In this document: piece by piece, positions 1 to 29,991 of the stretch | Layout of the letters: each line of letters opens with the position of its first letter | How positions within the stretch are numbered: the stretch's first letter is position 1 | IMG/VR virus record: IMGVR_UViG_3300020448_000027 | Location: 1-29,991 of that record | Strand: one strand, 5' to 3' | Length of the DNA stretch: 29,991 nt | Origin: a virus | Program-made: the position numbers and the translations under genes | The notes under the pieces: model-generated | What the model was told of the DNA's origin: nothing | Seen by the model: the letters and a program-made list of their open reading frames with translations, nothing else | Databases searched by the model: none

Positions 1-1155
1 AACGGCATCTGAGTAGCCCCCAGAGAGTCCTAAACACTCTGTGACGTATAAATTACCATTAAGCATCTTAACGCAGCTTATAGCGGTCTGATCTTTACCC
101 TTTCCTGATGGGTCAACAAACATAACTGACCCTGTATATTCTATAAAGTCACCAAATTCTTGGGCAGGTCGGTAAAATCTATCGCCATTGAACCCTACAC
201 ATTGGAGATCTGTAATGACATATTCGGGATTATTAGACCAAATAATTTTTTCTGGTGCAAATTCTTTATTTACAGAAGCAATTACTAGGTCGTTTATCTT
301 TAAAGGGTATCTATCTTGATCTGAAAGGGTTGTATCTAGTTGAAACTGTAGATTGAACCCAGAACGACCATAGGAAGCTTCACGTTCCATCAAATCCTGT
401 GCAGAGAACCTTATAGGGTCTACAGGGTCATTAGGCTTTACAATCCCTTCTGTAAGCTTTCTGCTGATAATAGGAGCAAGTCTATCTCCATAGTTGTTTT
501 TTAAGTATGGGTAACGTGCAGTCCATATTCTTGTTTCATATCCTCTTTCTTCCAGTGTTAGGTACACAGAGTTTTCTACTTGTGGTGTACCAAGAAAGGT
601 AATCTTGCCATTTGGTTTTAGTATCGCTTCAAATTCTTTTACAGCTTCACTGAGTTTGTCTCTCATGGGCTGTGTATAGGAATTATTCGGAACCTCTACG
701 TCATCTGCGATAACTTCATCTGCCCTAGCTCCTGACATCTGCCCTAAGACACCCCTAGAAGAGCATGAGGGAGCATGGTCGGCTTGTGCAGGTTTTACAT
801 CAAAACTAACCTTACTGTTTCTCTGGTCGTCTCTGGGTATCAAATCAGCAAGTATTGGCATCTCATTGATAAGACGCATGGTAAATGTAGTAAAGTTATC
901 GGCTCTATCTTTACTGGCAGATACGACCAAGAATTTTAGCTGTGGATTCATACGAAGTTTCCATACTACATAGGTAGATGTAATCCAACTCTTACCTACA
1001 CCACGAAATCCTTGTATGATTTTACGTCTTGCACCATATTGTAGATATTCAGCAATATCTAACTGAACAGGTGTAGGATCTGGTAGGTTTAGATGTCTCC
1101 AAGTAACGATTAAGAAATATCTAAAGTCCTGTAGTTTTTCTGGTAGTGGTTGCAA
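1..1155 (-). CDS. terL: Terminase large subunit (T7 gp19-like), partial, C-terminus outside window
   Basis: This is the DNA-packaging motor ATPase and nuclease, which pumps phage DNA into the prohead through the portal. 385 codons are visible and the gene runs off the left edge. Seen in the translation: Walker A GFRGVGKS at residues 49-56, Walker B with acidic VIADDVE at 147-153, and the first nuclease aspartate in FVDPSGKGKDQTA (D348). The N-terminal stretch DFRYFLIVTWRHLNLPDPT aligns by eye with the start of T7 gp19. There is no ATG or GTG before Walker A. The only plausible start is a TTG at 1155-1153 directly after the TAA of the small terminase and in the same frame. Expression is therefore probably by termination-reinitiation, or possibly by stop-codon readthrough. 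The family assignment is firm; the start is inferred. Confidence 0.95.
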   Translation of the reverse strand, partial: MQPLPEKLQDFRYFLIVTWRHLNLPDPTPVQLDIAEYLQYGARRKIIQGFRGVGKSWITSTYVVWKLRMNPQLKFLVVSASKDRADNFTTFTMRLINEMPILADLIPRDDQRNSKVSFDVKPAQADHAPSCSSRGVLGQMSGARADEVIADDVEVPNNSYTQPMRDKLSEAVKEFEAILKPNGKITFLGTPQVENSVYLTLEERGYETRIWTARYPYLKNNYGDRLAPIISRKLTEGIVKPNDPVDPIRFSAQDLMEREASYGRSGFNLQFQLDTTLSDQDRYPLKINDLVIASVNKEFAPEKIIWSNNPEYVITDLQCVGFNGDRFYRPAQEFGDFIEYTGSVMFVDPSGKGKDQTAISCVKMLNGNLYVTECLGLSGGYSDAV

Positions 1156-5052: not shown

Positions 5053-8000
5053 TATGATACCTCAATTAAATTAAACTTATACTTTTTGCCATTGCGTTTG
5101 TTAATCAAGAATAGCGACTCCTCTCCTTCTTGTATAGTATAACTTCCCCAAGTTCCGTCAACATCATTAGATGAACCTTCGTTAGATAAGTTAAGGTCAT
5201 TGGTGTAGATGTTTCTCCAACGATATGATGATGTACCTAAATCTGATGCGTTGTTACTACCGGGAAGTATATTTCCAGTGTTTGTTATTAAAGCTCTATT
5301 AGAACCACCAGTATCTCTAAAATATAAGTTACCTTGATATTGAAAATAACTATTACTTGGATCAGCTTGTATTTTTATACCACCATTATATTCTCCAGCC
5401 CAAGTACCAGCAGCAATACGAAAATCATTAGTAGAGGGAATCTGTACGCCAGTTGAAGCTGTCTCAAACTTTTTAGCGTTGTCGTGATATAACTCACACT
5501 GCCCATTTGCTACAAAAACAGCCATATTTTCGCTACCATCACCATTAAGAAAATGATGTCTAGTGTTTGAATAATAAGCTAAAGGATGACTAGAACTTTT
5601 AAGAACTGAAGATGAGCCATCGTGAAAAATTTGTAAGTCATCACCATTTCCAAATGTTACTTTGGAGTTATCTAAACCAGCAAGTTGTCCTGTCCATATA
5701 GCTCCATAACTTTTGGTTTCAAACTTTTTACTGTTGTCGTAATATAGCTCTACTGCTCCGTTTGCTACAGCATTAATCATGTCTTCGTCTGTAGTACTCT
5801 TAACAGTAAAGCCACCATTACCATTAGAAACTCTTATATTTACATCTCCATTAGTTTGTGTACTTCTGATAAATAAATCTCCAATACCATCATTATCAAT
5901 GTAAGAATGTACCCCAGAATGGTAAATATCTAGATCTTCACCTGTTCCAATTTTTATTTTATCGTTATCAGCCATGAGAATATCATTACCATTACTTGCT
6001 AAGTCACCGCCTAGCTGTGGTGAACTGTCGTTAACAACTTCTGTAGATATGTTTCCAACTGTTGTGTTAAGTGCAGCTATATCTACACCATCAACTGTTC
6101 CTGAGACTGTGATATTTCCTGTTACGTCAATACCAGCAGAAAAATCACAATTACCACTAATTGTTGTTTGACCATTAGAAGCTATAGTTAATCTGCCAGT
6201 ATCAGAGTCAATATCTTTAATAGCAAAAGTACCATCATCATTTTGGATATGAAAGTCGTTCTCGTTATTGCTATCATTTAAAACTAATTTAGGTTTTGTT
6301 CCAGTAATTGTTATATCGTTACTACCTAAAGTTCCTGTTGTGGCTATGTTTTGGTCAGATAATAAACTTACAATTTCACTAGCTGTTTGATCTGCTGTCG
6401 CACCTGTCTCAATACCATCTAACTTTGTACCATCAGTACTTAGATCACGACCATCTACGTTACCAGATACAACAATATTACCTGTCACAGAAGTTCCTGT
6501 ACTGGTAATTTCTATTTTTGTATTACCACCAGTTTGTAATTTTAAACTGCCTGTACCTTGATCGTTAATTACAGAATCACTACCGTTATGAAATATCTCT
6601 AATCCATCAGAACTTGTACCAAATATAGATTTTACGTTGTCGTTATGTATGTTACTACCAGTAAATGTGTTACCAGTAACAACAGCAAAGCTACCTGTAG
6701 CTGTTACACCATCTACCCAAGCACTACCTGTATAAACTTTAAGTGAATCAGATGTAGTGTTAAAAAATAAATCTCCAACATCTAAGCTATCTGTAGGGTT
6801 GCTTGCACCTATACGATATGTATTAGCAAAACTGTTAACGCTTGATATATTAGTTGCTACTGTGTTTACGTTAGTAATTGACCCACCAACATTATTTACA
6901 TTTGTTATTGCATTGCCAACTGTATTAACATTAGAGATTGATCCAGCAACTATACCAACATTATCATCAATAACATTTATGGTGTTACCCATAGAGTTAC
7001 CATGTGATGTGCAATAGTACTTAAGTGAACTAGGTGCGTTAGCTGCTACAACAATAACTACAGTTGCACCAGAATTGCCAGCAGTTCCGTTTGTTGTAAC
7101 TCCTGTAGTGTAAGAGTTGTCGCTGCTGTCTCTAAAAGCTAAAGGGTGTCCGCTATTGCTGCTGTCAGCTAAATTAAATGTATATGTTTTACCTCTAGCA
7201 AGTTTTAGTACAGGTGTTTGTACACTATCTATAAAGTATTTATTGCCACTTACGTTTTGTACTGTAACTGTAAATGTTTGGTTAGCACCTGCGGAGTTAC
7301 TTACGCTATTTACATTTGTGATGTTGTTACCAACATTATTTACGTTGGTCACGTTAGTAGCAACAGTATCCATATCACTAATAACATCAGCTACAGCTAG
7401 TGTGTTCATGTCACTTATAACATCAGCTACAGCCAACGTATTCATATCGCTAACAATATCTGCTGTCGCAAGGGTATTCATATCAGCAACAACATCTGTT
7501 GTGCCTAGTATTGCCATATCTGCTACTGCGTCAGCAGTTCCTAATCTGCCTATCTCTACAGCTTTACCAGCTACAGTTGTTACCTCTGTTGCTTTTGGTA
7601 CTAATCTATGAAATGAGTATGTATGAAGCGTGGTTGTAGATTCTACTAAAAATCCAAAACCAGAAGGTATAGTAGTTGGTACATCAGTAATAGTAATATT
7701 TGCATTATCAGCTACGTTACCATTTGCTACAGTTACAGTTGTACCACTAGGAACTAAGTTTGTAGTTGCTGCTTTAATACTTAATACTGCTGCTTGTCCT
7801 GTGACTCCTTGTGGGTTTACGTTTGGAAAAGCTTGTTCACTAGCAATAATAGTAAAACCACCAACATCATCTATAAGGTCAATTATTCTGTCATTTATAG
7901 CTGCGGTAGTTGCAATGGTTGTATCGTTATCTGGGAATGTTTGACCATCTTTTATTGTGTCACCAGTACTGATATTAAAAAATCTAGCGTCAGCAGCAGC

Positions 8001-12100: not shown

Positions 12101-13045
12101 TCCTATACCTTTTCCTTTCTTTACTTCTAAAGGTTTTACTAAATCAATAACTTTTTCATCTAATAACTCGTTACCAGCTTCATCAATACCAAGGTCTTTA
12201 AATTTTAATTTTCTTTTACGTTCTAAGGTTGATATAATTTTTGGAGCTAGAGGAGAATTTCTAAAACCTTTTAAACCCACAGCTAACCCTGTTAAAACTT
12301 CTCCTAAAATTGCACCACCAAAAGCTTTTCTAAGTCTTGCTTCTATAGGAGATATATCATCATCAGCTTTAAATACTGATGCTGGCATTTTCAAAACATC
12401 TATTACAGGTTCTAACGCACCTTCATATTCATCAACCATGTTGTAAAGGTTTTGTTCAAATGGATCTTCTACAACAAAATCTGTAAGAAAACCTGCAACA
12501 AGGTTTCTTGTCCAAGGGTTTTTAATACCTTTAAGACCTTTGGTAAAGATCCCCATAGGTAATAAGAATTGTGTTATGGCTTGTGGTATCTGAAAAAATG
12601 CACCATCATCTTCTCTTTCAAAATAACTGTAATCAATAAGGTCGTTATTGTCGTATGGATTACCTGCTAAATAATCATATATATCATCTGCAAACTCCAC
12701 AGTTTCGTTTATTGCTTTTAAAGGACCAGTAATAGCACCTCTAATTACTTGTGATGCTTTTGTCTTTTTTATTTCTTCATCTCTTTCTGTAAATTTTTCT
12801 TTTCCTTCATTAATAATTCGTGATCTGTTTTCTAATATTTCTTCAAAACTTCTTTGATCTCCTAAAAATTTATTATCAAAAAAATCTACTACACCTGCTT
12901 GGCTTTTGTTTATAACTTTGCTGACAGCAGATAGGGGTTGGTTATCAAACCTTTGAAACAAAGCGTCTGTTTCTGGTGTTTCTATTTTTTTCTTTTCTTC
13001 TTCCTCTTCATTATTTAGAAGATTATTGATGTTTGAGTCTGTCAT
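9110..13045 (-). CDS. Large internal virion protein (T7 gp16 equivalent), 1311 aa
   Basis: The position directly before the tail fibre and the length (1311 versus 1318 in T7 gp16) identify it as the largest internal core/ejection protein, which forms a channel for DNA across the host envelope. The N-terminus is very acidic (NNEEEEEKKK). The body is mostly charged helix, with moderately hydrophobic stretches such as GGFAVSVGLIA near residue 920. I see no SLT transglycosylase motif here, unlike T7 gp16; that activity sits in the upstream gene. A DNA- or membrane-contact role is inferred. The start is 1 base after the upstream stop (TAACATG). Confidence 0.82.
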   Translation of the reverse strand: MTDSNINNLLNNEEEEEKKKIETPETDALFQRFDNQPLSAVSKVINKSQAGVVDFFDNKFLGDQRSFEEILENRSRIINEGKEKFTERDEEIKKTKASQVIRGAITGPLKAINETVEFADDIYDYLAGNPYDNNDLIDYSYFEREDDGAFFQIPQAITQFLLPMGIFTKGLKGIKNPWTRNLVAGFLTDFVVEDPFEQNLYNMVDEYEGALEPVIDVLKMPASVFKADDDISPIEARLRKAFGGAILGEVLTGLAVGLKGFRNSPLAPKIISTLERKRKLKFKDLGIDEAGNELLDEKVIDLVKPLEVKKGKGIGDTTQVPEVGDKIESTFNPNITGGGIDELTDSLLNIAEYFRDTDELGQWARSVSLGDMFAASQRQTNGEALEAARFFLQEFGPFKKTKNGKIINNPKYLPATTISVNQMMNKNGEAVFNLSAALHNAIATKNADLIKEIKPAFLKEVKVLKGLVYLNKGVSSLTSQTLGARRIAGDLRDTVTEAKDFGRRSRGTENINNINRDFVENVGVSEIDETFNKIFDLVEKGDQEAALALTRLTKYLNVAGGNPEVMKHMIKKGLLLKGVEFTNEIFINSILSGPPTHIVNLLSTSLNTLSKPLSQSLGAAKVVFRKDMDISFADTLLARRDNLIFKPEFNSDEFIKGWKQFIYMGESLGDAFNIARKAFKVNENILDRGAMVSDAQRVSRNINAEDVRNFADQNIVTRGTVKPFVDVFLADAWLPSIYNNFRRINGFGSRMLITEDEFLKQVNFRAYVKAEAWEQGIRKNLQGDQLKKYIQKQTKKVFKIVDTGSVGKMPKSIQDMYKKAKDFAAEATFTKELDNTGIAGRIQNFAQHPYGRIVFPFVRTPVNIFKTQIRHTPVVNLFMKEYRQALRSTDPNIAARARGEMYLGGGFAVSVGLIARDIENPFAEIAMTGGGPNTVGFGDSIEANRQLVKQKKEEGWQPYSFRFLVRDSNGEIVLTKSGKPKYKYISYKRLDPWSGTFMLLADFIDIEGQIGSQQSNDFATALTVSIARNLTDRTYIRGLTEVAEAIHNPYALQTLLARRAANIINPVAGLGRSVQRATDKTKLDTTYYPADEVNTGLRQTLNELARTIPFYNANLEPDRNWLTGSVVEYPSGFGPDTFDILNPFTATNTKDNYVLSVINDLNISLQSPKKFFMRRQGIQGSGIELTSKQYASYIKYLAFDTKEDGQRLIVKLYKELNKPENKAFYKTAMGEEVDSTNQDTMVGVQDNARAILSKKIKGIVADYKVKARNEWLRLPENRELFKRYSANIEIINNETTKATIKNLEKIKNLGN

Positions 13046-13046
13046 G

Positions 13047-15629
13047 TTAGTTCTTTAAAAACTTTTTATAGGAGCCATTTTTGTATGCACCCCAAGCATC
13101 TAGTCCTTGCTCATCATATAGTCGCTTGGCTGCAATTACATTAATAATAGGATCATATAACTCTTCTTCAGATTCAATATCAAACACATCTAACAATCTG
13201 TCTTTATCATCTTTCATATTTAGTTGTAATAAACCTATAGAAAATTCTTTTTTCTTCTGTGGATCTAAACCTGATTTTACTGTATCAATCATAGGATTAC
13301 CTGCTGATTCTGCCATTGCTACAGCAGCCATAATTTTAGCAATCTCTGGCTCAAAACCTACAGCTAACAACATATCTTCTATCTTAGGTTGAGGTATTAC
13401 TTTTGTCTTGTCTGTATCTTTTAATATCACATTTAATGCTTTTATTTGATTATTTTTTACTTCTTTCATATTTACCCTTTCGACTATTGGCATAACTAAC
13501 TCTTGCCCTACTCTTATCATGTCTGGGTTAGTAAGATTATTAGCTTCCATAATTGCTTGTACTGATGAACCAAATTGATCTGCTAATTCACTTAAAGTAT
13601 CTCCTTGTTCTACTTCAACTGTAGTAGGTGAATCATCATCAGTAAAAGCACTAGCTTCTAAATTATCAGTATCTACCAATAGTTTCATTGGTTGATAAAC
13701 TCTTGGACCTTCACCGCCAAATCCATACTCACCTGTTTGTAAAAATCTAATTATTCGATCTGCTTCTGACTTTCCAACAATATTTGTAAAGTTCATTTTT
13801 GCTTTTTCTGCTACTACTTCTTCTAGCAACTTATCTCTATTTTCTTTTGTAATACCTCCCATTCTTGTTAGTTCTGCAATAACTCTTGATTCAACTGAAG
13901 GTAAAGCTGTGTTACCAAAGAAATCACCAGTTTCGTTATTGTTATTAGTTCCACCATCTGTAGCTACTCCTTCAAGTCCGCTTTGATTTTCATTTATAAA
14001 TTTTGTATTATTGTCAGTTTGTTCACTTGAAGGGTCTAGTTGTTTTTTTAATTTAGCTAGTAATTTAGCATCATATATACCTGCAAGTCTTTCATATTCT
14101 GCATTAATCTGTGCTGTACCTGCATTTTGATTAGATAATCTCCATTCTCTAAACTCTTGTTTAAATTCTTCAAGGTTTACTTTTACAAGATTTAATTGTT
14201 CATCTTTACCTATTGCAGAAAATATCTTTAATTCGGTATCTGATGTAAGTAAATTTTTAGATCTTCCTTCGTAAGTTACGAAGTAACTATTTAGAGGTGT
14301 TAAGACTCCTTTATCAACTGTACCTGCAAGACTCATTAAGCTATTTAGTCTACTTGTATTAAGATCATTTTTAACTGTACCTTCATCAAGATACCAAGCC
14401 ATAGCTGCTATTCTTGCATCTGATAATGTTTCATAGTTCCCTTCATTTATATTAAAAATTATTTGAGCATATTTTTCATTTGTATCACCATCTAAAACTG
14501 CTGCATTTGAAGCAAGTTTTGTTGCAATTAATGGGTTTGCTCTTTGTAATTCTTCTAATAAGTTAACTGCTTCCTCTCCTTTCCCTGTTGCATACAAAGA
14601 TGCAACATTCAACATACCTAATTCTATAGCTTCTTCTTTTTGTCTTTTTGCATCTGCCCTGTCTCTTCTATCTGATTTGTCTGTATAGTCTTCAACATCT
14701 TCTCGTAATTTATTTTCCATCTCAACGTAGTCAGGGTGGTCTAATAAAGTTAACTGTCCATTAGGACCAAAAGGAAATTGATCTGCACTTTTAAAAATTG
14801 ATAAAGCTAAATCTACATCACCAGTATCAAATCCAATTCTTTTTGCTTCAGCACTAAGACTATCTAATATTGTTTTATTGATAGCTGATCTATTTTTTGA
14901 ACTTAATCCTAATTTATTTATATCATTTTCAAATTGATCTATAGAAGCTGTTAATAATAAGAATTGATTTTTGCTTACATCATCTGAGTCTGGACCTGCT
15001 GTTTGAAAATTTATTATATTTTTAGCAAGACTAGAAGCATCAATTTTTAATTTTTCTACTTGAAACTCCTCATGTCTTTTTTCGTGAATGTCAGTTATTT
15101 TAGTTGTGGCATTTATAAGGTATGGAAAAAATTTTTTGTTGAAAGTATCACTATCTACATCACCTAAAGAATTTATAACTTCTGTTCTTGTTTCGTTTAA
15201 CCAATCTGAAAACTCTAATGAATCTAAAGAAAAGTTTGATAAAGGTACTCCATCTACTGTTGCATTTTCGTATTCAGTTTTAAATTTACTTTCTAAACCA
15301 CCACCTAAAATTGTAGCTTTTGTTCTTTTAAAAACCTTGTTATAAAGTCTATTACCGCTAAACAGTTTATTATCTCTTACATATTTAGATGCGTCAGCCC
15401 AATCGTTTGTTGAGCTATCTAAAGCATCATTCATTGCTTCTTCTGATATTTCTGCCCTTCTTTCGTCAATCTTAGTTTCTATAAACTTTTCTAATACTGG
15501 ATTTATAACCTTTAAAGTTTCGGCAAGTGCCATCATATTTGTTTTAGGCAAAACTTTAACAGGTTCTACAAACGTATCAACTGGTTGTGCAAACGATTGG
15601 TAAGCAGTACTTTGAAAACTTGATGACAT
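13047..15629 (-). CDS. Internal virion protein with LysM and lytic transglycosylase domains (T7 gp15 position), 860 aa
   Basis: The first 650 residues or so are helical and charged, like T7 gp15. Residues about 671-713 form a LysM peptidoglycan-binding module (VEQGDTLSELADQFG ... IRVGQELVMP). Residues about 753-860 are a soluble lytic transglycosylase (SLT) domain: catalytic Glu in AMAESAGNP (E774), GLLQ at 799-802, and a C-terminal YDPIINVIAAKRLYDEQG helix. It should cut the glycan strands locally at entry so the ejection tube can cross the cell wall. In T7 the SLT domain is at the N-terminus of gp16. Here it is at the C-terminus of the gp15 equivalent. Confidence 0.9.
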   Translation of the reverse strand: MSSSFQSTAYQSFAQPVDTFVEPVKVLPKTNMMALAETLKVINPVLEKFIETKIDERRAEISEEAMNDALDSSTNDWADASKYVRDNKLFSGNRLYNKVFKRTKATILGGGLESKFKTEYENATVDGVPLSNFSLDSLEFSDWLNETRTEVINSLGDVDSDTFNKKFFPYLINATTKITDIHEKRHEEFQVEKLKIDASSLAKNIINFQTAGPDSDDVSKNQFLLLTASIDQFENDINKLGLSSKNRSAINKTILDSLSAEAKRIGFDTGDVDLALSIFKSADQFPFGPNGQLTLLDHPDYVEMENKLREDVEDYTDKSDRRDRADAKRQKEEAIELGMLNVASLYATGKGEEAVNLLEELQRANPLIATKLASNAAVLDGDTNEKYAQIIFNINEGNYETLSDARIAAMAWYLDEGTVKNDLNTSRLNSLMSLAGTVDKGVLTPLNSYFVTYEGRSKNLLTSDTELKIFSAIGKDEQLNLVKVNLEEFKQEFREWRLSNQNAGTAQINAEYERLAGIYDAKLLAKLKKQLDPSSEQTDNNTKFINENQSGLEGVATDGGTNNNNETGDFFGNTALPSVESRVIAELTRMGGITKENRDKLLEEVVAEKAKMNFTNIVGKSEADRIIRFLQTGEYGFGGEGPRVYQPMKLLVDTDNLEASAFTDDDSPTTVEVEQGDTLSELADQFGSSVQAIMEANNLTNPDMIRVGQELVMPIVERVNMKEVKNNQIKALNVILKDTDKTKVIPQPKIEDMLLAVGFEPEIAKIMAAVAMAESAGNPMIDTVKSGLDPQKKKEFSIGLLQLNMKDDKDRLLDVFDIESEEELYDPIINVIAAKRLYDEQGLDAWGAYKNGSYKKFLKN

Positions 15630-19066: not shown

Positions 19067-19675
19067 TTATCTAATTAAAGCACTAGAAGGATTGTAAGTA
19101 TCAAAGATACTGGTAAGTGAAGGATCACCTCTTAATAAATTATGATCTCCATTTGCTAAGTCTGTTTCCATAAGTATTGCTCTAGCTCTTTGCTCGTCTT
19201 GTTGTGTATAAGTTCTTAATGATTGGTCACTTACAAGTCTATCAACAAATTTTCTTGCAGCTTGTATATTCATATAGTGTCTAGCTGGTTCTGGTATTTC
19301 ATCAAAATCTCTAAAATAAACAACAGTACAAATTAAGTCTTCATCAAACTCATACTTATTGTTTTGTCTGTCATATAATTTTAAACCACGTTGTATAGGA
19401 TCAATAGTCGGGTGTTGATGTATATTAGCGTCTACTCTTAATACATTTGTAGGAATGTTTATTTGATTAGATCCATCTCTTGTAAGGGTTACATCTATCT
19501 CAGTATTAAAAGACCAGCCTTCTGACTGTACACTTTTATTAACTTCAGTAAGAGTTGACTGAGCAATACGAGCATCAACAGGAAGTGTACCAATAAGACT
19601 ATTGATAGGTGCTTCTCCTATGGCAGCAAGCATTATGTTGATACATTCAAGTTCTGTGGTTGCAGCTACAGCCAT
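19067..19675 (-). CDS. Tail tubular protein A (T7 gp11-like), 202 aa
   Basis: This is the adaptor ring between the portal and the tail nozzle. The product has ELECINIMLAAIGEAPINSL near the start, a motif found in gp11-type and other phage head-tail adaptors. The middle has VQSEGWSFNTEIDVTL and LRVDANIHQHPTID. The C-terminal half holds ARHYMNIQAARKFVDRLV and QDEQRARAILME. Length matches T7 gp11 (196). It is the first gene after the capsid terminator. A purine-rich AGGGG lies about 11 bases before the ATG, inside the end of a possible 23-codon frame. Confidence 0.94.
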   Translation of the reverse strand: MAVAATTELECINIMLAAIGEAPINSLIGTLPVDARIAQSTLTEVNKSVQSEGWSFNTEIDVTLTRDGSNQINIPTNVLRVDANIHQHPTIDPIQRGLKLYDRQNNKYEFDEDLICTVVYFRDFDEIPEPARHYMNIQAARKFVDRLVSDQSLRTYTQQDEQRARAILMETDLANGDHNLLRGDPSLTSIFDTYNPSSALIR

Positions 19676-19678
19676 TAT

Positions 19679-19750
19679 TTAGTACCCCTTTTTTTTAATC
19701 TTAAGTGAGTCTCTCCCACCTTTCTTTTTCTTCTTCTTTGAATGATACAT
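19679..19750 (-). CDS. Possible tiny basic protein, 23 aa
   Basis: A 23-codon frame lies between the capsid terminator and tail tubular protein A. The product is MYHSKKKKKKGGRD followed by SLKIKKKGY, almost entirely basic, with a SLKI motif also seen in other small proteins of this phage. The stop is 3 bases before the next ATG. There is no clear Shine-Dalgarno, and it follows directly on the terminator T-run, so its expression needs readthrough or a promoter I cannot see. It may be a real conserved micro-protein or just leader sequence. Confidence 0.45.
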   Translation of the reverse strand: MYHSKKKKKKGGRDSLKIKKKGY

Positions 19751-19756
19751 GGTAAT

Positions 19757-19788
19757 AAAAAAAAGGGTATCTAATAATAAGATACCCT
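19757..19788 (-). terminator. Rho-independent terminator after the major capsid gene
   Basis: Read on the minus strand, a stem GGGTATCT / AGATACCC with a 7-base AT loop is followed directly by eight T residues. With the flanking A-T pair the stem is 9 bp. It starts about 12 bases after the capsid stop. This matches the place of the T-phi terminator after gene 10 in T7, which lowers tail gene transcription relative to capsid. Confidence 0.9.
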
Positions 19789-19799
19789 ATAAATTGAAA

Positions 19800-21047
19800 T
19801 TAAGAAGCAGATAGCTTAATAGTAGCTGCACATTCTGGTCTTAGGATTCCATGACCAAGAGCGTATTTTGCAACCATCAGCGTTCCTTGGTATAAAATAC
19901 CGTAGTCAGAACCAGAGATCTCAGTTGTCATATCCATAAGTTTTACTGTTCCCACAGCAGATTTATGAAAAACCAACCCTATGGTTTTACTATCGTCACC
20001 TGAGTAAGTGTTGTTCGCACCACTTGGGTTAGATCCTACGTTACTTTGAGGTACGTTGTTTGACATCATGATGGGTATGCCAGCAACTTGTTGTACCTTA
20101 CCAGAAGCAAACGAACCATTACCCTGTGGGTTAAAGTCAACGTCTACAGTTCTTGTAGCAGACTCGGCAAGTTTGTAGTACTCAGCAGGTGGTAGTACAC
20201 AGAAACGATCTGTTGGAGGAATGTCTCTTTCATCAAATGTCTGTGCAATGTCATAGATAGCTGCTGCTATCTCATCACCTGTGACGTTTGCTGAAGCTGT
20301 ATTACCATTAGCAAGTGTTAATACAAGACCACCATTACCACCACTAAGAGTAGTAGAAGCTCTGGAAGCGTTTGCAATTTGCTTGGCTACGTTCTGGTCA
20401 TAGGTTCTGGCTAAAGCCTTTCCTAATTCATCAGCATAGGTAGCTCTAACGTCATAGTGATTCTTCAAGATTGTTAACCTAAAGGCTCTTTATCCTTTAG
20501 TTCTGCATCTTTGCCATTGATGCAGTTCAGACTATATCTTCAACCCTGTGGGTTGCAAGGCACTCGTGTCTCCGTTACTTAGTTTCCTATCGGGAGTTAG
20601 TCGTTGAACCTTCTAACTTGTAGGTTAGCTTGGCTGCTGATTGTCCTTTTTGTTGGAGGATTTCCAGCAATTCACCTTGTTATCTTATTGCTGTTACCAG
20701 CAAAAGGCTCTAATCATTTTAGAAAAAAGCTCATCTATGTTCGCTATAAAACTCTGTGCAATTAGAAGATCATCAATGTTGATAATCTTTTCGTTTGCCT
20801 TGATTTGGTTAGCACCAACAAGAGGAGTTCCTACTGTATGGTATGCAGCAGTAGCAGTTCCTAATACTGGAAACTGTGCTGACTTACCACTTGTGATAGT
20901 ACGAACTGAATGAAGTTGCTCGTTAAAAATGTTATTTCTAGCAAAAGCTGTAAGCACTTCTCCAGAAAACACTTTCAGAAACAAAGCGTCAAAGTCTGTC
21001 CCTGAATTATTCACCAAACCAAGTCTACTTGTCGTGGCGTTAGCCAT
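19800..21047 (-). CDS. Major capsid protein (T7 gp10-like), split by a group I intron
   Basis: The coding parts are exon 1, 21047-20727 (107 codons), and exon 2, 20465-19800 (221 codons plus stop). Together they make a 328-residue coat protein (T7 gp10A is 345). Exon 1 contains FLKVFSGEVLTAFARNN, TSGKSAQFPVLGTATAAYH and KIINIDDLLIAQSFIANIDEL. Exon 2 begins KNHYDVRATYADELGKALAR. The T7 protein reads AMNHYDVRSEYTSQLGESLA at this place, so the join IDEL/KNHYDVR restores the family sequence without a gap. Unspliced RNA would add 10 codons and stop at TAA (117 aa). A strong Shine-Dalgarno AAGGAG (21059-21054) precedes the ATG by 6 bases, fitting high expression. A terminator follows. Confidence 0.95.
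20466..20726 (-). ncRNA. Group I intron (261 nt, IA-like, no endonuclease ORF) in the major capsid gene
   Basis: Self-splicing intron. The conserved core elements are present in order on the minus strand: P (AATTGCTGGAAA), Q (AATCAGCAGCCAAGC), R (TTCAACGACTA) and S (AAGATATAGTC). Helices I can pair by hand: P1, exon GCTT with intron GAGC giving the U.G splice-site wobble; P2, TTGCTG/CAGCAA with a GTAA loop; P3, CAAGGTG (20679-20673) with TGCCTTG (20562-20556); P4, TTGCTG/CAGCAG; P5, TCCT/AGGA; P6a, CTAAC/GTTAG; P7, CGACTA with TAGTC; P8, CAACCC/GGGTTG; P9, CTGCATC/GATGCAG; P9.1, CTAAAGG/CCTTTAG. A CTCC/GGAG pair between R and P3' fits the P7.1 region of subgroup IA. The intron ends in the required G (20466). 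No protein gene fits inside. Confidence 0.95.
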
Positions 21048-22927: not shown

Positions 22928-23086
22928 TTAACTATAGTGAATTGTACTGCCATGTCTAGTAGTGACATCACCAGACTTTTCAGGTACAGGGTTTTCTTCG
23001 TTAACACCTAGTTTGCTAACGATAGCTTTTTCAGAGACAAACTTTCCATCTTCATCTCTTTTTCTACTAGACTTTTTACTGGGCAT
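22928..23086 (-). CDS. Small hypothetical protein, 52 aa
   Basis: The start was set at ATG 23086-23084 because a GGAGG lies about 10 bases before it; a longer frame reaches 23122 but would overlap the portal gene more. The product MPSKKSSRKRDEDGKFVSEK continues with AIVSKLGVNEENPVP and ends GSTIHYS. The basic then acidic layout suggests a small head accessory protein. It overlaps the portal 3' end by 11 bases and stops 12 bases before the scaffold gene. Confidence 0.7.
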   Translation of the reverse strand: MPSKKSSRKRDEDGKFVSEKAIVSKLGVNEENPVPEKSGDVTTRHGSTIHYS

Positions 23087-24659
23087 CTTGAGGTTCCTCC
23101 GTTGGTAATTGTTGTGAAGCATCAGCTAATTTTTTAGGATCAACTAATGGTGAGCCTAAAGCAGCAGGTCCAAGACTTTGAATAAGCTGTTGTTGTTGTG
23201 CAACCTCTTGTTCTGCTTGGATTTGTTCTTGTGTTTTTACTAGGTTAGCAGTATCTATACCAATACTGGTAGCAAGGCGTTTGACCGCTTCATCTACATT
23301 GACGTATTGTCTCATTACATCTGGTCCTAAAGCTTGAGCTACAGTTCCTATAAACTCTATCAGTTTGTTTCTATCATTACCTCTACCAAGTCCTTGAAGT
23401 CCTGTCACTATCTTGGGTTTGACCAATTCATCAGGCAGCTTGGGAACCTTGCCCTGTCTTACCAGTAAGTGCATACGTCTTCTTAAATATGGTAGTTGAA
23501 ACTCTTGAGTCAAAATACTATAGATACCACCAAGACTATTCTCTAGTTCTTGTGCCATAAGATTTATCTCGGCTGCTGTCACTCTTTCTGCATCACGTTG
23601 TACTGATCTTGCCATTAAGAAAGCAAACTCAAGTCTTGCTTCTATTCTTTGTATTGCACTAAAAGCAACAGAGAAGTCTGCGCTTTTCCCAACTTGCATC
23701 ACACTTATATCTGCTGCGGTTCCTTCTCGCACGGCTCCATTCGGGGCTTGACTAATAGTTGCTGCCCTTGTGACCCCATTCGGATTTACAAGAAAAAGCG
23801 TTTTCGCACTGGCAGCAGCGCCTTCGATTATTGCTTGCATTAAAGACTCAAGACTAATTAAGTCTCCTCTGTATTCTTCAACATAACCTCTACCATAATC
23901 TTCACCATCAACCCTAATAAATCTAAGAGGTAGCCAAGGTGTTACATCTACTCTTGATCTACCATCTGTATTTGGTATCTTCTCTCCCTTACATTCTTGA
24001 AACCAAAAGACATCATCATTAATTCTTTTTATATGCGTATATATATCAAGGTCATCTGTCATTGTTTTAGCGTCATAGTTCTCTTTCTTCTTGATCTGTT
24101 CTAAGAAAGCAGCAGGTAAAGCTTGTGGGTGTATTGTTTCTTTAGTTAGTATTTCTAATACGTTACCTACTTCATCACGCTTACAAACAAACTTAGATAA
24201 TGGAAAGACTTTAAGACCTGCATCTGTTAGATATAACAAGACATTACCTGATACGACTAGATGTTTGATAGCTTCAAACATGGCAACCCTATCATTAGAT
24301 ATTTCTATCTGATTCATCAAAGCATTTTCTATTGTTCGTAGTCCTTTATCTATCTCACTCTGCATTTGTTCTTGCCCTTGCTTTCTTATCTCAAGAGCAT
24401 CTATTTCTAATTTAAAAAATGCTGTGCTTGGAGGAAGCAAAGTCATTAATAATTTATTTGACAAACTGTTCACACCACGACTACCAGTAGCTTGGAAGGG
24501 AGTCTTTATTCTCGCCCTTGTTCCTGATGTCTGTTCTGGTATCAAGCTAGGTATCGTTAGCTTTGAAGATTCTTTTGCTTCTCTATCATAGACAGATCTA
24601 CTACCAACAAGTGCTTCATACCTACCTGCTGCGGTTGTGCCTTGTGCCGAGTATTCCAT
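23076..24659 (-). CDS. Portal protein (T7 gp8-like head-tail connector), 527 aa
   Basis: Length (527 versus 536 in T7 gp8) and place before scaffold and capsid identify the dodecameric portal through which DNA enters and leaves the head. Supporting motifs: GRYEALVGSRSVYDREAKE near the start, IKTPFQATGSRGVNSLSNKLL, and PFFKLEI-like TAFFKLEIDA. In the middle there is WLPLRFIRVDGEDYGRGYVE, a well-kept block of this family. Then come SLMQAIIEGAAASAKTLFLV and AERVTAAEINLMAQELENSLG. The C-terminal third is Gln-rich (EQEVAQQQQLIQ), probably a helical barrel. Confidence 0.96.
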   Translation of the reverse strand: MEYSAQGTTAAGRYEALVGSRSVYDREAKESSKLTIPSLIPEQTSGTRARIKTPFQATGSRGVNSLSNKLLMTLLPPSTAFFKLEIDALEIRKQGQEQMQSEIDKGLRTIENALMNQIEISNDRVAMFEAIKHLVVSGNVLLYLTDAGLKVFPLSKFVCKRDEVGNVLEILTKETIHPQALPAAFLEQIKKKENYDAKTMTDDLDIYTHIKRINDDVFWFQECKGEKIPNTDGRSRVDVTPWLPLRFIRVDGEDYGRGYVEEYRGDLISLESLMQAIIEGAAASAKTLFLVNPNGVTRAATISQAPNGAVREGTAADISVMQVGKSADFSVAFSAIQRIEARLEFAFLMARSVQRDAERVTAAEINLMAQELENSLGGIYSILTQEFQLPYLRRRMHLLVRQGKVPKLPDELVKPKIVTGLQGLGRGNDRNKLIEFIGTVAQALGPDVMRQYVNVDEAVKRLATSIGIDTANLVKTQEQIQAEQEVAQQQQLIQSLGPAALGSPLVDPKKLADASQQLPTEEPQDAQ

Positions 24660-25415: not shown

Positions 25416-25455
25416 AAGAAAACCTCAAGGGTGTGGTTCCTCTTGGGGTTTTCTT
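25416..25455 (-). terminator. Strong hairpin terminator after the exonuclease gene, possibly bidirectional
   Basis: Arms 25416-25429 and 25442-25455 pair over 14 bp including one G.T, with a 12-base loop. Each arm ends in an A or T run (AAAACC/GGTTTT), so a U-run follows on either strand. It overlaps the exonuclease stop codon. It separates the replication genes from the structural genes. Confidence 0.8.
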
Positions 25456-26189
25456 TATGGGTTCCAAAGTTTTACTTCTCCTGTATTGTAATCATAATCT
25501 CCTTCTCGCAGTATCCTTGTAAGCCTTGCGTTCAAGATAGCATCAGCAATCGTATAACCTTTCTTAGTGTATGTCTCCTGTACCTTAGACCATAGTGCTT
25601 CTTTGGTATCAGGTATATCGGCTAAAGTCTTTGAAGCTGTAACCATACCCATACCTTTGATACCTAGTATTCCGTCACCAGCATCACCAGCTAACGACAT
25701 CTCAAACCAATGTCTGTTTGCTTTTTTGTTTGTGATATGTTCTATCTCGTCATCAGCAATAAGTTTGCATGGTAGTGTTCTCATATCTTTATCAACTGAA
25801 ACTATTATCGGGTCTTTGTATCTGCCGTTGGTAGCAAGCAAACCTAATACGTCATCACCTTCTAAGTTATCATAAGATACAGTTTCATATTTTTCTTTTA
25901 CTTCTTTTATAACACTCTTAAGTGCAAGTGGTTTACGTTTACCTATCCTGTTGATCTTGTACTCAGGAAATATCTCATGTCGAAATGTAGGGTAAGAAGT
26001 AAAACACATAACTATGTCATGCTCACTGTCAGCAATAGTTCTATAAACATCTAATCTGTTTTCTATCAGGTTGAGTATGTCTCTTTCATCAGAGTGAAGA
26101 GTATGCTCCCAATCATTCCATCTTGTATCTTGCTCACAGGCACAGCAAGAATTGTAGATCAACCAATCAGCATCAATAAGTAAAGTCAT
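25455..26189 (-). CDS. 5'-3' exonuclease (T7 gp6-like, FEN family), 244 aa
   Basis: A structure-specific nuclease that removes RNA primers, helps recombination and degrades host DNA. Active-site acids seen: D6 and D8 in LLIDADW, E110/D112/D113 in LEGDDVLG, D133 and D135 in SVDKDMRTLP, and D169/D172 in AGDAGDG. A helix-hairpin-helix GIKGMGMVTASKTL follows. The end GEVKLWNP matches the T7 gp6 end (EIYLWRP). Slightly shorter than T7 gp6 (300). It follows the primase-helicase after 2 bases, with no DNA polymerase gene in between. Confidence 0.94.
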   Translation of the reverse strand: MTLLIDADWLIYNSCCACEQDTRWNDWEHTLHSDERDILNLIENRLDVYRTIADSEHDIVMCFTSYPTFRHEIFPEYKINRIGKRKPLALKSVIKEVKEKYETVSYDNLEGDDVLGLLATNGRYKDPIIVSVDKDMRTLPCKLIADDEIEHITNKKANRHWFEMSLAGDAGDGILGIKGMGMVTASKTLADIPDTKEALWSKVQETYTKKGYTIADAILNARLTRILREGDYDYNTGEVKLWNP

Positions 26190-26191
26190 AG

Positions 26192-27796
26192 CTAAATAAA
26201 ATCCTCATATACAACAAGCCGACCTGTCTTCTGGTCGTACAGTAATTTATCTACTTCTCCTGTCATACCAGTATGTCTTGATTTCAACACCTTTAGTTGT
26301 AATCGCTGTCTCTCACTAGCTTCTCCTGTTTGGTTTCTTGATGCAGATAGTACAACATCTGATAGTTGAAGAAGACTATGGCTACCTCTCAAGTCTGATG
26401 TATCAACCTCCCTACCCGACTCATGTGATTGTCCTTGTGGTCTGCGTAAGTGGCTGACCAATACAATAGCTATACCAGTTGCTTCACTTAAACTTCTTAG
26501 CTTGGTCATTATTATATCTATTGCTTTGCGTTCATTATCTAGTTCAAGACCAGACAAGACTATGCTTATGTGATCTAGTATGACTACCTTTACTCCATCA
26601 ACAGTAGCTAAATATCTTATCTGTTCTAGTAATACATCAGGTTCAAGACTACCAAAGTGGTTATATAAAAAAAGATTGCGTGTTGAGGTGAGGTTATCAA
26701 ACGCAATCCGCAGATCATCTTTAGTTATGACATCTTCATTTAAGTGCAAAGGAATGTTTAAGTCAATACCTACAAGACCTTGAAGAGTTCTTTGTACTGA
26801 TTCTTCCAACCCAATGTAACCAACCTTTAGCTTTCTTTTAAGGAAGTGATGGCATAGCTCCCTGCATATCGTGGACTTACCTGCACCACTAGCACTAGCT
26901 ACTGTAAATATCTGACTAGGAAACAAACCTTTTGTATATTCGTTCAGCTTTGGAAATGGAAAGTCTGATACAGGTTTACTTGTTTCTTTGGTAAATAAAT
27001 CCCAAGCGTCTGCTGCATTTATAAGAGAGTCAGGTCTTACTGGTCTAGCTTTCCATAGCCTATCTTTGACTAGCTCACTTTCTGCTGATACAAGATGATC
27101 GTTTATATCATTACGATCTAGTCTTGCTATGGCAACCTTACCCTTTGGTAAAACTTCCATACATTTATCTGCTGCTTTCATACCTGCAAAATCATTATCA
27201 AAACAAATAACAATACGACAAAAAGTATCAAGCCATTTGTAGTTAGCTGCTAGGTACTTGGCTGCTGATTGTACGCCTGACGGAATGGAGACACAGGGGA
27301 ACTTATTACCTTGTATCTGACTAGCACTCATGCAATCTATCTCACCTTCACAAACAGTTATAAATACAGAACCATTACCTCCATGCTGTCTCCAAAGATG
27401 CTGACCCCATAGCTGTACCTTTGACATATCTCCTATCCATATAAACTTCTTATCTTGAAAGCGTATGTGCTGTGCAACATCATTACCTTTCTGATCTTTA
27501 TATGTAGCTACTTGTACTGGCTGCCCTCTGTACTCTGCCTGTCCATAACCAAATAGTTCTGAAGTTTCTTTTGTGATTCCACGTTTGGGTAAAGCTATAG
27601 GTGTTACCTTCAACAACTTTGGGTTTGGTTTGTATATAGGAATGATCTTGGTGGTCACTTTCTTTTCTTTTTTGTTTGGGTAGTAGGTGTAGCCACAGTC
27701 CATAGTGAAACAATGGTGGTGTCCATCATCAAAGACTGCGCAGTTTTTTTTACCGCACTCAGGGCAAACTATTTTATTCTTGTACTGACTTTTCAT
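26192..27796 (-). CDS. Primase-helicase (T7 gp4-like), 534 aa
   Basis: A bifunctional replication enzyme. Residues 11-34 form a zinc finger (CPEC then C29 and C34) that reads the primer site. The Toprim primase core has CEGEID with E150 and CFDNDFAG with D200/D202. The RecA/DnaB helicase part has Walker A ASGAGKST (K307), VVILDHIS (D408) and VLVSHLRRP (H449), then DLRGSHSLLQLSD. Length is close to T7 gp4A (566). Its start overlaps the upstream small gene by 23 bases. Confidence 0.96.
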   Translation of the reverse strand: MKSQYKNKIVCPECGKKNCAVFDDGHHHCFTMDCGYTYYPNKKEKKVTTKIIPIYKPNPKLLKVTPIALPKRGITKETSELFGYGQAEYRGQPVQVATYKDQKGNDVAQHIRFQDKKFIWIGDMSKVQLWGQHLWRQHGGNGSVFITVCEGEIDCMSASQIQGNKFPCVSIPSGVQSAAKYLAANYKWLDTFCRIVICFDNDFAGMKAADKCMEVLPKGKVAIARLDRNDINDHLVSAESELVKDRLWKARPVRPDSLINAADAWDLFTKETSKPVSDFPFPKLNEYTKGLFPSQIFTVASASGAGKSTICRELCHHFLKRKLKVGYIGLEESVQRTLQGLVGIDLNIPLHLNEDVITKDDLRIAFDNLTSTRNLFLYNHFGSLEPDVLLEQIRYLATVDGVKVVILDHISIVLSGLELDNERKAIDIIMTKLRSLSEATGIAIVLVSHLRRPQGQSHESGREVDTSDLRGSHSLLQLSDVVLSASRNQTGEASERQRLQLKVLKSRHTGMTGEVDKLLYDQKTGRLVVYEDFI

Positions 27797-27962
27797 CTAA
27801 GTCTTTTCCATATATAACTCGTTCAAGAGATGACTTGGTTATGTATTCATTAAGGTGTATGTCAATCCATTCTTTACCATTAAATGCAACCCAAACAGCC
27901 CTTTGGTCATCAAACATAAGACAACCTGCTTTGGGATTTGGAGGTAGAGGAAATTTAGGCAT
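27774..27962 (-). CDS. Small hypothetical protein, 62 aa
   Basis: The open frame reaches an ATG at 28025, but ATG 27962-27960 gives a short 8-base overlap with endonuclease I and is preferred. The product is MPKFPLPPNPKAGCLMFDDQ then RAVWVAFNGKEWIDIHLNEY. I do not recognise it. In T7 this slot carries gp3.5 lysozyme; no Zn-amidase motif is found here. It overlaps the primase-helicase start by 23 bases, so it is probably coupled to it. Confidence 0.65.
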   Translation of the reverse strand: MPKFPLPPNPKAGCLMFDDQRAVWVAFNGKEWIDIHLNEYITKSSLERVIYGKDLDEKSVQE

Positions 27963-28317
27963 ACCATTCAGAGGGAATAAATTTGTCGCAGTATTGGAAC
28001 CCATGTCTCGTACACCATTTGGCATACGAGATAGAGTTCTTGGCTTTTGATAGTTTGGTCTTGCTGTTTTGAAAGCAAAACCTTATATCTAAGTCGGGTC
28101 TTGTCTCCTTAATAATAAGGTGTTTGCGTCTGTCTTCTTTTGAGAAGTAGCCCTTCGTTTCCACAATAAAATTGTTGAGGATAAAGTCAGGCCGATAGGT
28201 GCAAGTAATTTCATAGTCAACGCTGATAGTTTCATAGGTAAATACAATTTTCTTTTTGATTAAGTTGTCAGCAAACGAAGCTTCAAACTTACTTTTGTAT
28301 TTAGAAGTCGGCTGCAT
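27955..28317 (-). CDS. Endonuclease I, Holliday junction resolvase (T7 gp3-like), 120 aa
   Basis: It resolves branched DNA and helps break host DNA. With the start at ATG 28317 (GGGGGA about 8 bases before it), the T7 catalytic set is found: E12 in KFEASFA, D44 in YRPDF, E53 and K55 in IVETKG. Further matches are DRRKHLIIKETRPDLDIRF and CTRHGFQYCDKFIPSEW. A longer frame up to 28419 exists but lies inside the SSB gene and adds no family sequence. It overlaps the SSB end by 17 bases. Confidence 0.94.
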   Translation of the reverse strand: MQPTSKYKSKFEASFADNLIKKKIVFTYETISVDYEITCTYRPDFILNNFIVETKGYFSKEDRRKHLIIKETRPDLDIRFCFQNSKTKLSKAKNSISYAKWCTRHGFQYCDKFIPSEWYA

Positions 28318-28984
28318 TGGGTTGTTTCCCCCAATCACCTGTGTGTCCTGTAACTGTTTTTTCTTCATAACTACTTGGTGGTGCTGCTTCAAAGTCTGGG
28401 CTGCCTGTCCACTCAACATGATTTCTAACTATGACTTGTAAAGGTTGGCATCTTATACCGACACCATTAGCACCTGCGTCATAGCCACTACACTTCATAG
28501 ACATCTGGCCTTCTGTCATAGGACTAATCTTTTCATACTCTTTCTTTTCTTCGTCTGTCATAAGACGTAGAGGGTCTTCGTTTGCCCAGAAAGTAACAGG
28601 TGGATTAGTCCATACATCACCATTTTGTTTTACCCCACCAGCTTTCTTATTAGTCTTGATGACTAGGTATTCATCTTCTAAATAATAAGGTAGAGATGGT
28701 TCTCCAAACTTATTTTTTGTAAGGGTAAACTTTCTATCTGGATAGTATTCCTTTAATGAAACTTTCCATCTTTCAAGTAGGTCTTCTAGCTGTGAGTAGA
28801 TATGTTCTACTGCATCAACTTCTCTACCTTTGTCATCTTTCATCATTGTGCCTTTCTTTATAAGACACTCTGCTTTGTATTTCTTGACACCCTTGTACTC
28901 GTCAGGGGTTACAAGATATGAATACCTAAAGTTTGTAGGATTCGGTGTGACTATTTTAATAGTCTCTGGCTTGAGTTCTTCCAT
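28301..28984 (-). CDS. Single-stranded DNA-binding protein (T7 gp2.5-like), 227 aa
   Basis: It covers ssDNA and coordinates polymerase and helicase. Identified by place between RNA polymerase and endonuclease I and by length (T7 gp2.5 is 232). Seen: TPNPTNFRYSYLVTPDEYKG at the start, YKAECLIKKGT, PYYLEDEYLVIKTNKKAGG, and NGVGIRCQPLQVIVRNH in the OB-fold region. The chain ends in AADF, keeping the final Phe that is essential in T7 gp2.5, although the acidic tail is weak here (few Asp/Glu in the last 15 residues). Confidence 0.88.
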   Translation of the reverse strand: MEELKPETIKIVTPNPTNFRYSYLVTPDEYKGVKKYKAECLIKKGTMMKDDKGREVDAVEHIYSQLEDLLERWKVSLKEYYPDRKFTLTKNKFGEPSLPYYLEDEYLVIKTNKKAGGVKQNGDVWTNPPVTFWANEDPLRLMTDEEKKEYEKISPMTEGQMSMKCSGYDAGANGVGIRCQPLQVIVRNHVEWTGSPDFEAAPPSSYEEKTVTGHTGDWGKQPNAADF

Positions 28985-29057: not shown

Positions 29058-29991
29058 CTATGTAAATATATATGGTGCTGTCAACACATCTGTAATATCG
29101 TAGTCACCCATATCTAGTGCTGCTGGTAACTTACTTGTATCGCTTAATTGTTGTGTTGTTTGGTGGTATAAGTTATCAAGATTATTGTCACTATAAATCT
29201 TAAAGAAACTTTGCTTTACACATTCGATAAACCTTTGAAGCTCACTAGCTGGACTGCCATAGCAATCATGTATGACGCAAAAGTTTTTTAGTCCATGCTT
29301 GCTTGCTTCTACTAAACTCATGTGACAATGTGCAGCATCAAGACTGTGTATATAATTACTAGGAAAACCCTGTGCCTGTCTGCGTTTATCTACCTTAGTA
29401 GTATCAGGTTCAGCTAGACTTAGCCTGACGCTTGAGTTACTTAGTTTAGTCTTTACTCTTTTGACATCATTCTTGTAGTAGTTCTGTTGTACAAGAAACC
29501 CTGATGGTGTATGCCAAGAGATAGGTTTGTTTTCTTTATTGAAACATAACGCTGTAGTCTGCAAGTACTTCAATACCTCATAGCTTTCTGGGGTTACATA
29601 CTGAACAGCCTGTTCAATCATGGTTGCCAGATAAAAATTATTCTTAAAATTTTTTGCAACAAAAACATTTTCATTTACAAAGTATCTTTCTATGTAGTTT
29701 GCTATGCCGAATGTAGTTGAGTTATATGGAATCATAAGCACAGGTTTTTTTATAAACTTTCTTGTCAACTTGTCTTTCTGTACATACCAGATTGCAGCTT
29801 GCTCTGCTTTGTCATACTTCAGTAGCATCAATAGAACATCAAGTATTTGTTTATATAAATCCTGTTGTTGTTTTACATTTTGTAGGTTAACTTTGTTAGC
29901 TAAATGTCGATTAGATATAAGACCTGCTATGTGTTGGTAGCCATTGTTCGTACCATCAAGACAGCAAACATGATGTGATACATAGCCATAC
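29058..29991 (-). CDS. Single-subunit DNA-directed RNA polymerase (T7 gp1-like), partial, N-terminus outside window
   Basis: 310 C-terminal residues are visible, from the right edge. Motif A is CCLDGTNNGYQHIAGL (catalytic Asp, matches T7 D537). Motif B is LTRKFIKKPVLMIPYNS (matches T7 R627 to Y639, with Asn instead of the Gly after Tyr). Motif C is VIHDCYGSPA (matches T7 D812). The palm block RRQAQGFPSNYIHSLDAAH is also present. The enzyme should transcribe middle and late phage genes from its own promoters. The segment between motifs A and B is much shorter than in T7. Confidence 0.97.
   Translation of the reverse strand, partial: YGYVSHHVCCLDGTNNGYQHIAGLISNRHLANKVNLQNVKQQQDLYKQILDVLLMLLKYDKAEQAAIWYVQKDKLTRKFIKKPVLMIPYNSTTFGIANYIERYFVNENVFVAKNFKNNFYLATMIEQAVQYVTPESYEVLKYLQTTALCFNKENKPISWHTPSGFLVQQNYYKNDVKRVKTKLSNSSVRLSLAEPDTTKVDKRRQAQGFPSNYIHSLDAAHCHMSLVEASKHGLKNFCVIHDCYGSPASELQRFIECVKQSFFKIYSDNNLDNLYHQTTQQLSDTSKLPAALDMGDYDITDVLTAPYIFT

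Follow-up and report, generated by a model that had tools for sequence, protein, structure and literature searches.

A 29,991-base stretch of viral DNA, which we call the window, very probably belongs to an uncultured MPP-C-type cyanopodovirus whose lineage truly lacks a polymerase gene and whose DNA would be synthesised by a host polymerase (Pol III or Pol I), joined to the phage helicase by a contact other than that of T7. The lineage itself is already known. Cai et al. published it in 2022 with the missing DNA polymerase in their title, describing 18 isolates without the gene on Prochlorococcus MED4 and naming the clade MPP-C (PMC9860041), and the window adds one more uncultured member. New here, from sequence comparison, are the placement of the polymerase-less phages in one clade, the purifying selection on their replication genes and the altered C-terminus of their helicase.

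Gene content and relatives of the window

The window is a "linear" IMG/VR record cut at both ends. Because it begins within the gene for the terminase large subunit (TerL; 1-1155, minus strand, PHROG terminase families 1e-70) and stops within that for a T7-like RNA polymerase, of which the C-terminal part is present (29058-29990, minus strand, PF00940 9e-60), about 7-8 kb of the genome lie outside it. On the minus strand, RNA polymerase is followed by a gp2.5-like single-stranded-DNA-binding protein (SSB) ending in ...NAADF (28301-28984, phrog_112 1e-5), a gp3-like endonuclease I whose gene overlaps that of the SSB out of frame (27955-28419, PF05367 1e-36), a small ORF that is also present in P-SCSP2 (27774-28025, 61%), a T7 gp4-like primase-helicase of 534 aa (26192-27796) and, directly after it, a T7 gp6-like 5'-3' exonuclease of 244 aa (25455-26189). 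Pfam, PHROG and alignment all support the primase-helicase (DnaB_C 6e-21, Helic-prim_T7_N 3e-14, Toprim_2, phrog_239 2e-159), and its zinc-binding, Toprim (EGE..DND) and Walker A (SGAGKST) motifs are intact; the exonuclease matches 5_3_exonuc_N (2e-14) and the phrog_107 exonuclease family (2e-48). Beyond the exonuclease come three small ORFs, the portal gene (23076-24659, minus strand, PF12236 2e-77), with which the structural module begins, and lastly TerL. T7 and several pelagiphages carry a gp3.5 amidase/lysozyme gene between endonuclease I and primase-helicase, and this gene is missing between 27955-28419 and 26192-27796.

These genes mark the window as part of an uncultured cyanopodovirus of the MPP-C type, a T7-like member of the Autographiviridae. 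Family traits include the single-subunit RNA polymerase (PF00940 9e-60) and the T7-like order of modules, along with the portal, tube, nozzle, T7-like tail fibre N-terminus and T7-like terminase. The nearest isolate, P-SCSP2 (OM416780), has the same gene order, the same small genes around primase and exonuclease and the same absence of a polymerase, with 82% identity in the primase, 81% in the exonuclease, 94% in TerL over the part seen and 97-98% in the major capsid protein (MCP). The two are distinct species, with diverged ejection proteins and tail fibre and a group I intron in the capsid gene of the window. The host, inferred from P-SCSP2, is probably Prochlorococcus. The P-SCSP1 group (P-SCSP1u, OM416779) also lacks DNA polymerase and has the exonuclease directly after the primase, with a 4-base overlap in P-SCSP1u. 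However, P-SCSP1u is only 52% identical to the window in the primase, 56% in the exonuclease and 25% in RNA polymerase, and its TerL lies on the strand opposite to the window arrangement.

Other T7-like phages share the module but not the gap. The MPP-A/B cyanophages and P-RSP2 (Syn5, P-SSP7, P-RSP2) have SSB, endonuclease I, primase-helicase and exonuclease in a T7-like module, as the window does, but their primase and exonuclease genes flank one for a family A polymerase, and their helicase ends in ...DF. Coliphage T7 has the order RNA polymerase, SSB, endonuclease, primase-helicase, exonuclease and portal, and differs in having both a gene 5 polymerase and a gp3.5 amidase. At 30 kb, the window with its cut ends compares with 36.7-38.6 kb for relatives with redundant ends and 37-38 kb for MPP-C. 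A Pfam scan of window proteins, covering a genome fragment and part of its small ORFs, showed none of the auxiliary metabolic genes psbA, hli, nrd, talC, thyX and mazG. The P-SCSP1 group has no such genes. Among genome contigs searched for the host, the only matches were two phage contigs inside the metagenomic bin TMED161.

Several further genes were noted in the course of these comparisons. The capsid-gene intron of the window lies at 20466-20726 on the minus strand (RF00028, 82.5 bits, E 9e-20, Rfam span 20503-20730). The last base of the exon is U and that of the intron is G, and excision of the 261 bases restores a 328-aa protein with the identity to the P-SCSP2 MCP given above. The intron was not found in seven near-complete relatives. 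The annotated capsid gene of HTVC120P (19433-20607) is also split into two pieces, with about 190 bases between them, and no intron was detected there at the Rfam threshold. P-SCSP2 encodes, at 35301-36251 on the plus strand, an ArdC-like protein (ArdcN and MPTase-PolyVal domains), a possible anti-restriction factor. According to Cai et al., P-SCSP2 has no recognisable endonuclease gene (PMC9860041). At 5209-5628 (plus strand), overlapping its SSB gene, we find an unannotated ORF for endonuclease I that shares 76% identity with its counterpart in the window, a predicted gene that corrects the published description.

Absence of a DNA polymerase across the lineage

The stop codon of the primase-helicase and the ATG of the exonuclease are two bases apart (26190-26191), as the original prediction had read them. 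Its statement that T7 and its marine relatives keep the polymerase between these two genes was also borne out. In the polymerase-bearing marine relatives that were measured, the same junction is about 2.6-2.9 kb wide and holds the DNA polymerase gene, and the polymerase occupies this position in HTVC031P, CRP-361, P-RSP2, P-SSP7, Syn5, HTVC120P, HTVC019P and T7. Nor does a polymerase lie elsewhere in the 30 kb: PF00476 (DNA_pol_A) has no match in the 29,991 bases of the window and matches in 10 control genomes. A weak DNA_pol3_delta match within 13047-15629 (minus strand) was set aside as chance (E 0.02, 15 bits against a cut-off of 21); the 860-aa product of this gene is of the ejection type and contains LysM and lytic transglycosylase domains.

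We scanned viral contigs with the window primase, which returned 239 relatives (best 80 of 239 kept), and with the P-SCSP1u primase, which returned 27 loci. Among the matches listed, the exonuclease directly follows the primase in 100 loci with a readable junction, including the window, P-SCSP2 and P-SCSP1u, with either a 2-base gap or a 4-base overlap. The window is a single metagenomic contig, and the earlier analysis had named a deletion in one assembly only as a reason to doubt its reading. Such a recent deletion, or an assembly error, has negligible probability given the recurrence of the same junction in these loci from many samples and in the 18 sequenced isolates (PMC9860041).

Profile searches of the relatives agree. 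Across whole records, PF00476 matched none of 43 polymerase-less relatives and isolates and four of four polymerase-bearing controls. Family B and C polymerases were absent from ten records, mostly near-complete, and family X and Y polymerases and primase-polymerases from Pfam scans of selected ORFs. With six phage polymerases as tblastn queries, no polymerase-less locus gave anything at E<0.05.

Has the gene moved to the 7-8 kb that the window does not cover, whether in the early region or past TerL? The original prediction offered this as one of two options, the other being use of the host enzyme. The window is only a fragment, and T7-like early regions readily gain and lose genes, but relocation is extremely unlikely, and for the lineage as a whole it is refuted. 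No family A, B or C polymerase occurs in the complete isolates P-SCSP1u and P-SCSP2, nor in two relatives that look complete from their terminally redundant ends, which repeat over about 937 bp in G007 and about 100 bp in G005. A third, near-complete relative (G003, 37.1 kb) shares many proteins with the window at 96-99% identity. Its counterpart of the unseen stretch has no ORF longer than 284 aa besides RNA polymerase and TerL; the largest is an integrase of that length, accompanied by a small NrdR-type zinc ribbon protein and short ORFs. The polymerase just outside the window that had been named as a possible refutation did not turn up in these genomes. Near-complete relatives have no polymerase-size ORF left outside RNA polymerase, TerL and the virion genes. 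Because complete isolates and near-complete relatives lack the gene, we reject relocation off the contig; on the sequences compared, the absence is a property of the whole lineage and neither an assembly artefact nor a gene moved off the contig. The NrdR-type protein of G003 (12550-12783, minus strand, 77 aa, beside the integrase) has an N-terminal zinc ribbon scoring 7.6e-10, and may disturb how the host regulates ribonucleotide reductase, an enzyme absent from these phages.

A polymerase too divergent for profiles, for example within a giant virion protein, is the third option of Cai et al. (PMC9860041), and the giant virion proteins (1311 aa in the window, 1596 aa in P-SCSP2, 2563 aa in P-SCSP1u) indeed have no significant Pfam match. 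However, these proteins lie where gp14-gp16 are expected, between nozzle and tail fibre, the neighbour at 13047-15629 resembles an ejection protein in its LysM and transglycosylase domains, and no ORF in the replication module is of polymerase size. We regard a hidden polymerase as very unlikely.

The lineage without the gene appears to be single. In the primase tree, the window, P-SCSP2 and P-SCSP1u form a clade (support 100) apart from MPP-A, MPP-B and P-RSP2, and with 55 representatives all polymerase-less phages fall on one side of a single branch (support 100), in a quick, one-gene tree with several long branches and a T7 root. This placement is consistent with a single loss of the polymerase. 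Other marine T7-like clades, sampled in part by 209 loci from four further query lineages plus isolates, showed no independent loss.

Helicase C-terminus and selection on the replication genes

The T7-type replisome, a family A polymerase docked by an acidic, aromatic-ended helicase tail, is not what the window encodes. Its helicase ends in ...VVYEDFI, with no terminal Phe. The terminal Phe of gp4 itself belongs, as general background, to the docking tail; a limited literature search found no work on this residue. The gp4 helicase of T7 has an acidic C-terminal tail that docks on basic patches of gp5 (PMC8472574, PMC8835902, PMC12593628), and deletion of this tail lowers processivity about threefold (PMC8472574, PMC12593628) and abolishes cooperative fork binding (PMC8835902).

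Among the matches listed, a terminal Phe or Tyr is present in the helicase of 185 of 209 polymerase-bearing loci (mostly ...DF) and in none of the 100 polymerase-less loci, whose last residue is Leu (52), Ile (47) or Asp (1), as in YEDFI, YENDFADL, YENSFGDL and SDFFGEKL. These 100 loci are related, so that tail loss and polymerase loss coincide on one branch and count as a single event. By comparison, the terminal Phe of the SSB is kept in 71 of 71 polymerase-less loci. The change fits a helicase no longer coupled to a gp5-type polymerase. The helicase tail can be lost in phages that keep the polymerase, because one polymerase-bearing clade (L317 and kin, 21 loci) also lacks the C-terminal tail, and lacks it altogether, its helicases ending in ...TGRLTEMME, with TEMME or TEIME.

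Within the clade, dN/dS is 0.04-0.12 for the primase, 0.08-0.22 for the exonuclease and 0.13-0.24 for endonuclease I and SSB, with synonymous sites near saturation in the more distant pairs. The replication genes that were kept are under purifying selection and in use rather than decaying.

Could these phages instead be replication-defective satellites that use the polymerase of a co-infecting T7-like cyanophage? MPP-C and MPP-B phages do have host and waters in common (PMC9860041). However, one-step growth curves were obtained on MED4 with P-SCSP1a and P-SCSP1u in single-phage infection (PMC9860041), the genomes include complete modules for structure, packaging and transcription, and the helicase lacks the tail by which it would hold a gp5-type enzyme. 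We give such dependence almost no credence.

Probable replication with a host polymerase

With the alternatives weighed, use of a host polymerase by the phage is the most likely reading. Of the two options in the original prediction, relocation falls with the lineage-wide absence of the gene and use of the host enzyme stands by elimination. Cai et al. had likewise listed recruitment of host Pol I or of host Pol III alongside the unrecognised polymerase (PMC9860041). The phage primase-helicase, SSB, exonuclease and endonuclease I would prepare the fork and process it, synthesis would fall to a host DNA polymerase (Pol III or Pol I), and this enzyme would meet the helicase through a contact other than that between the T7 gp4 tail and gp5. 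A simple pattern search found no canonical sliding-clamp motif in the phage replication proteins. A more specific version, tentative and rather doubtful, is that the helicase C-terminus was rebuilt after the loss into a short, conserved tail whose Phe is internal and whose last residue is Leu or Ile (EDFI, NDFADL, NSFGDL, SDFFGEKL), and that this tail would dock a host replication protein (Pol III holoenzyme or Pol I) to form a hybrid replisome of phage T7-type helicase-primase and host polymerase.

Polymerase-less T7-like phages account for 43.5% of reads from surface-ocean cyanopodoviruses (Cai et al., PMC9860041), and they escape surveys that use polA as a marker. How a T7-type fork runs without a polymerase of its own is the question posed in that study (PMC9860041). 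The change in the helicase tail offers a concrete handle on it, since it predicts uncoupling from a gp5-type enzyme and supplies a short peptide that could serve as bait in the host.
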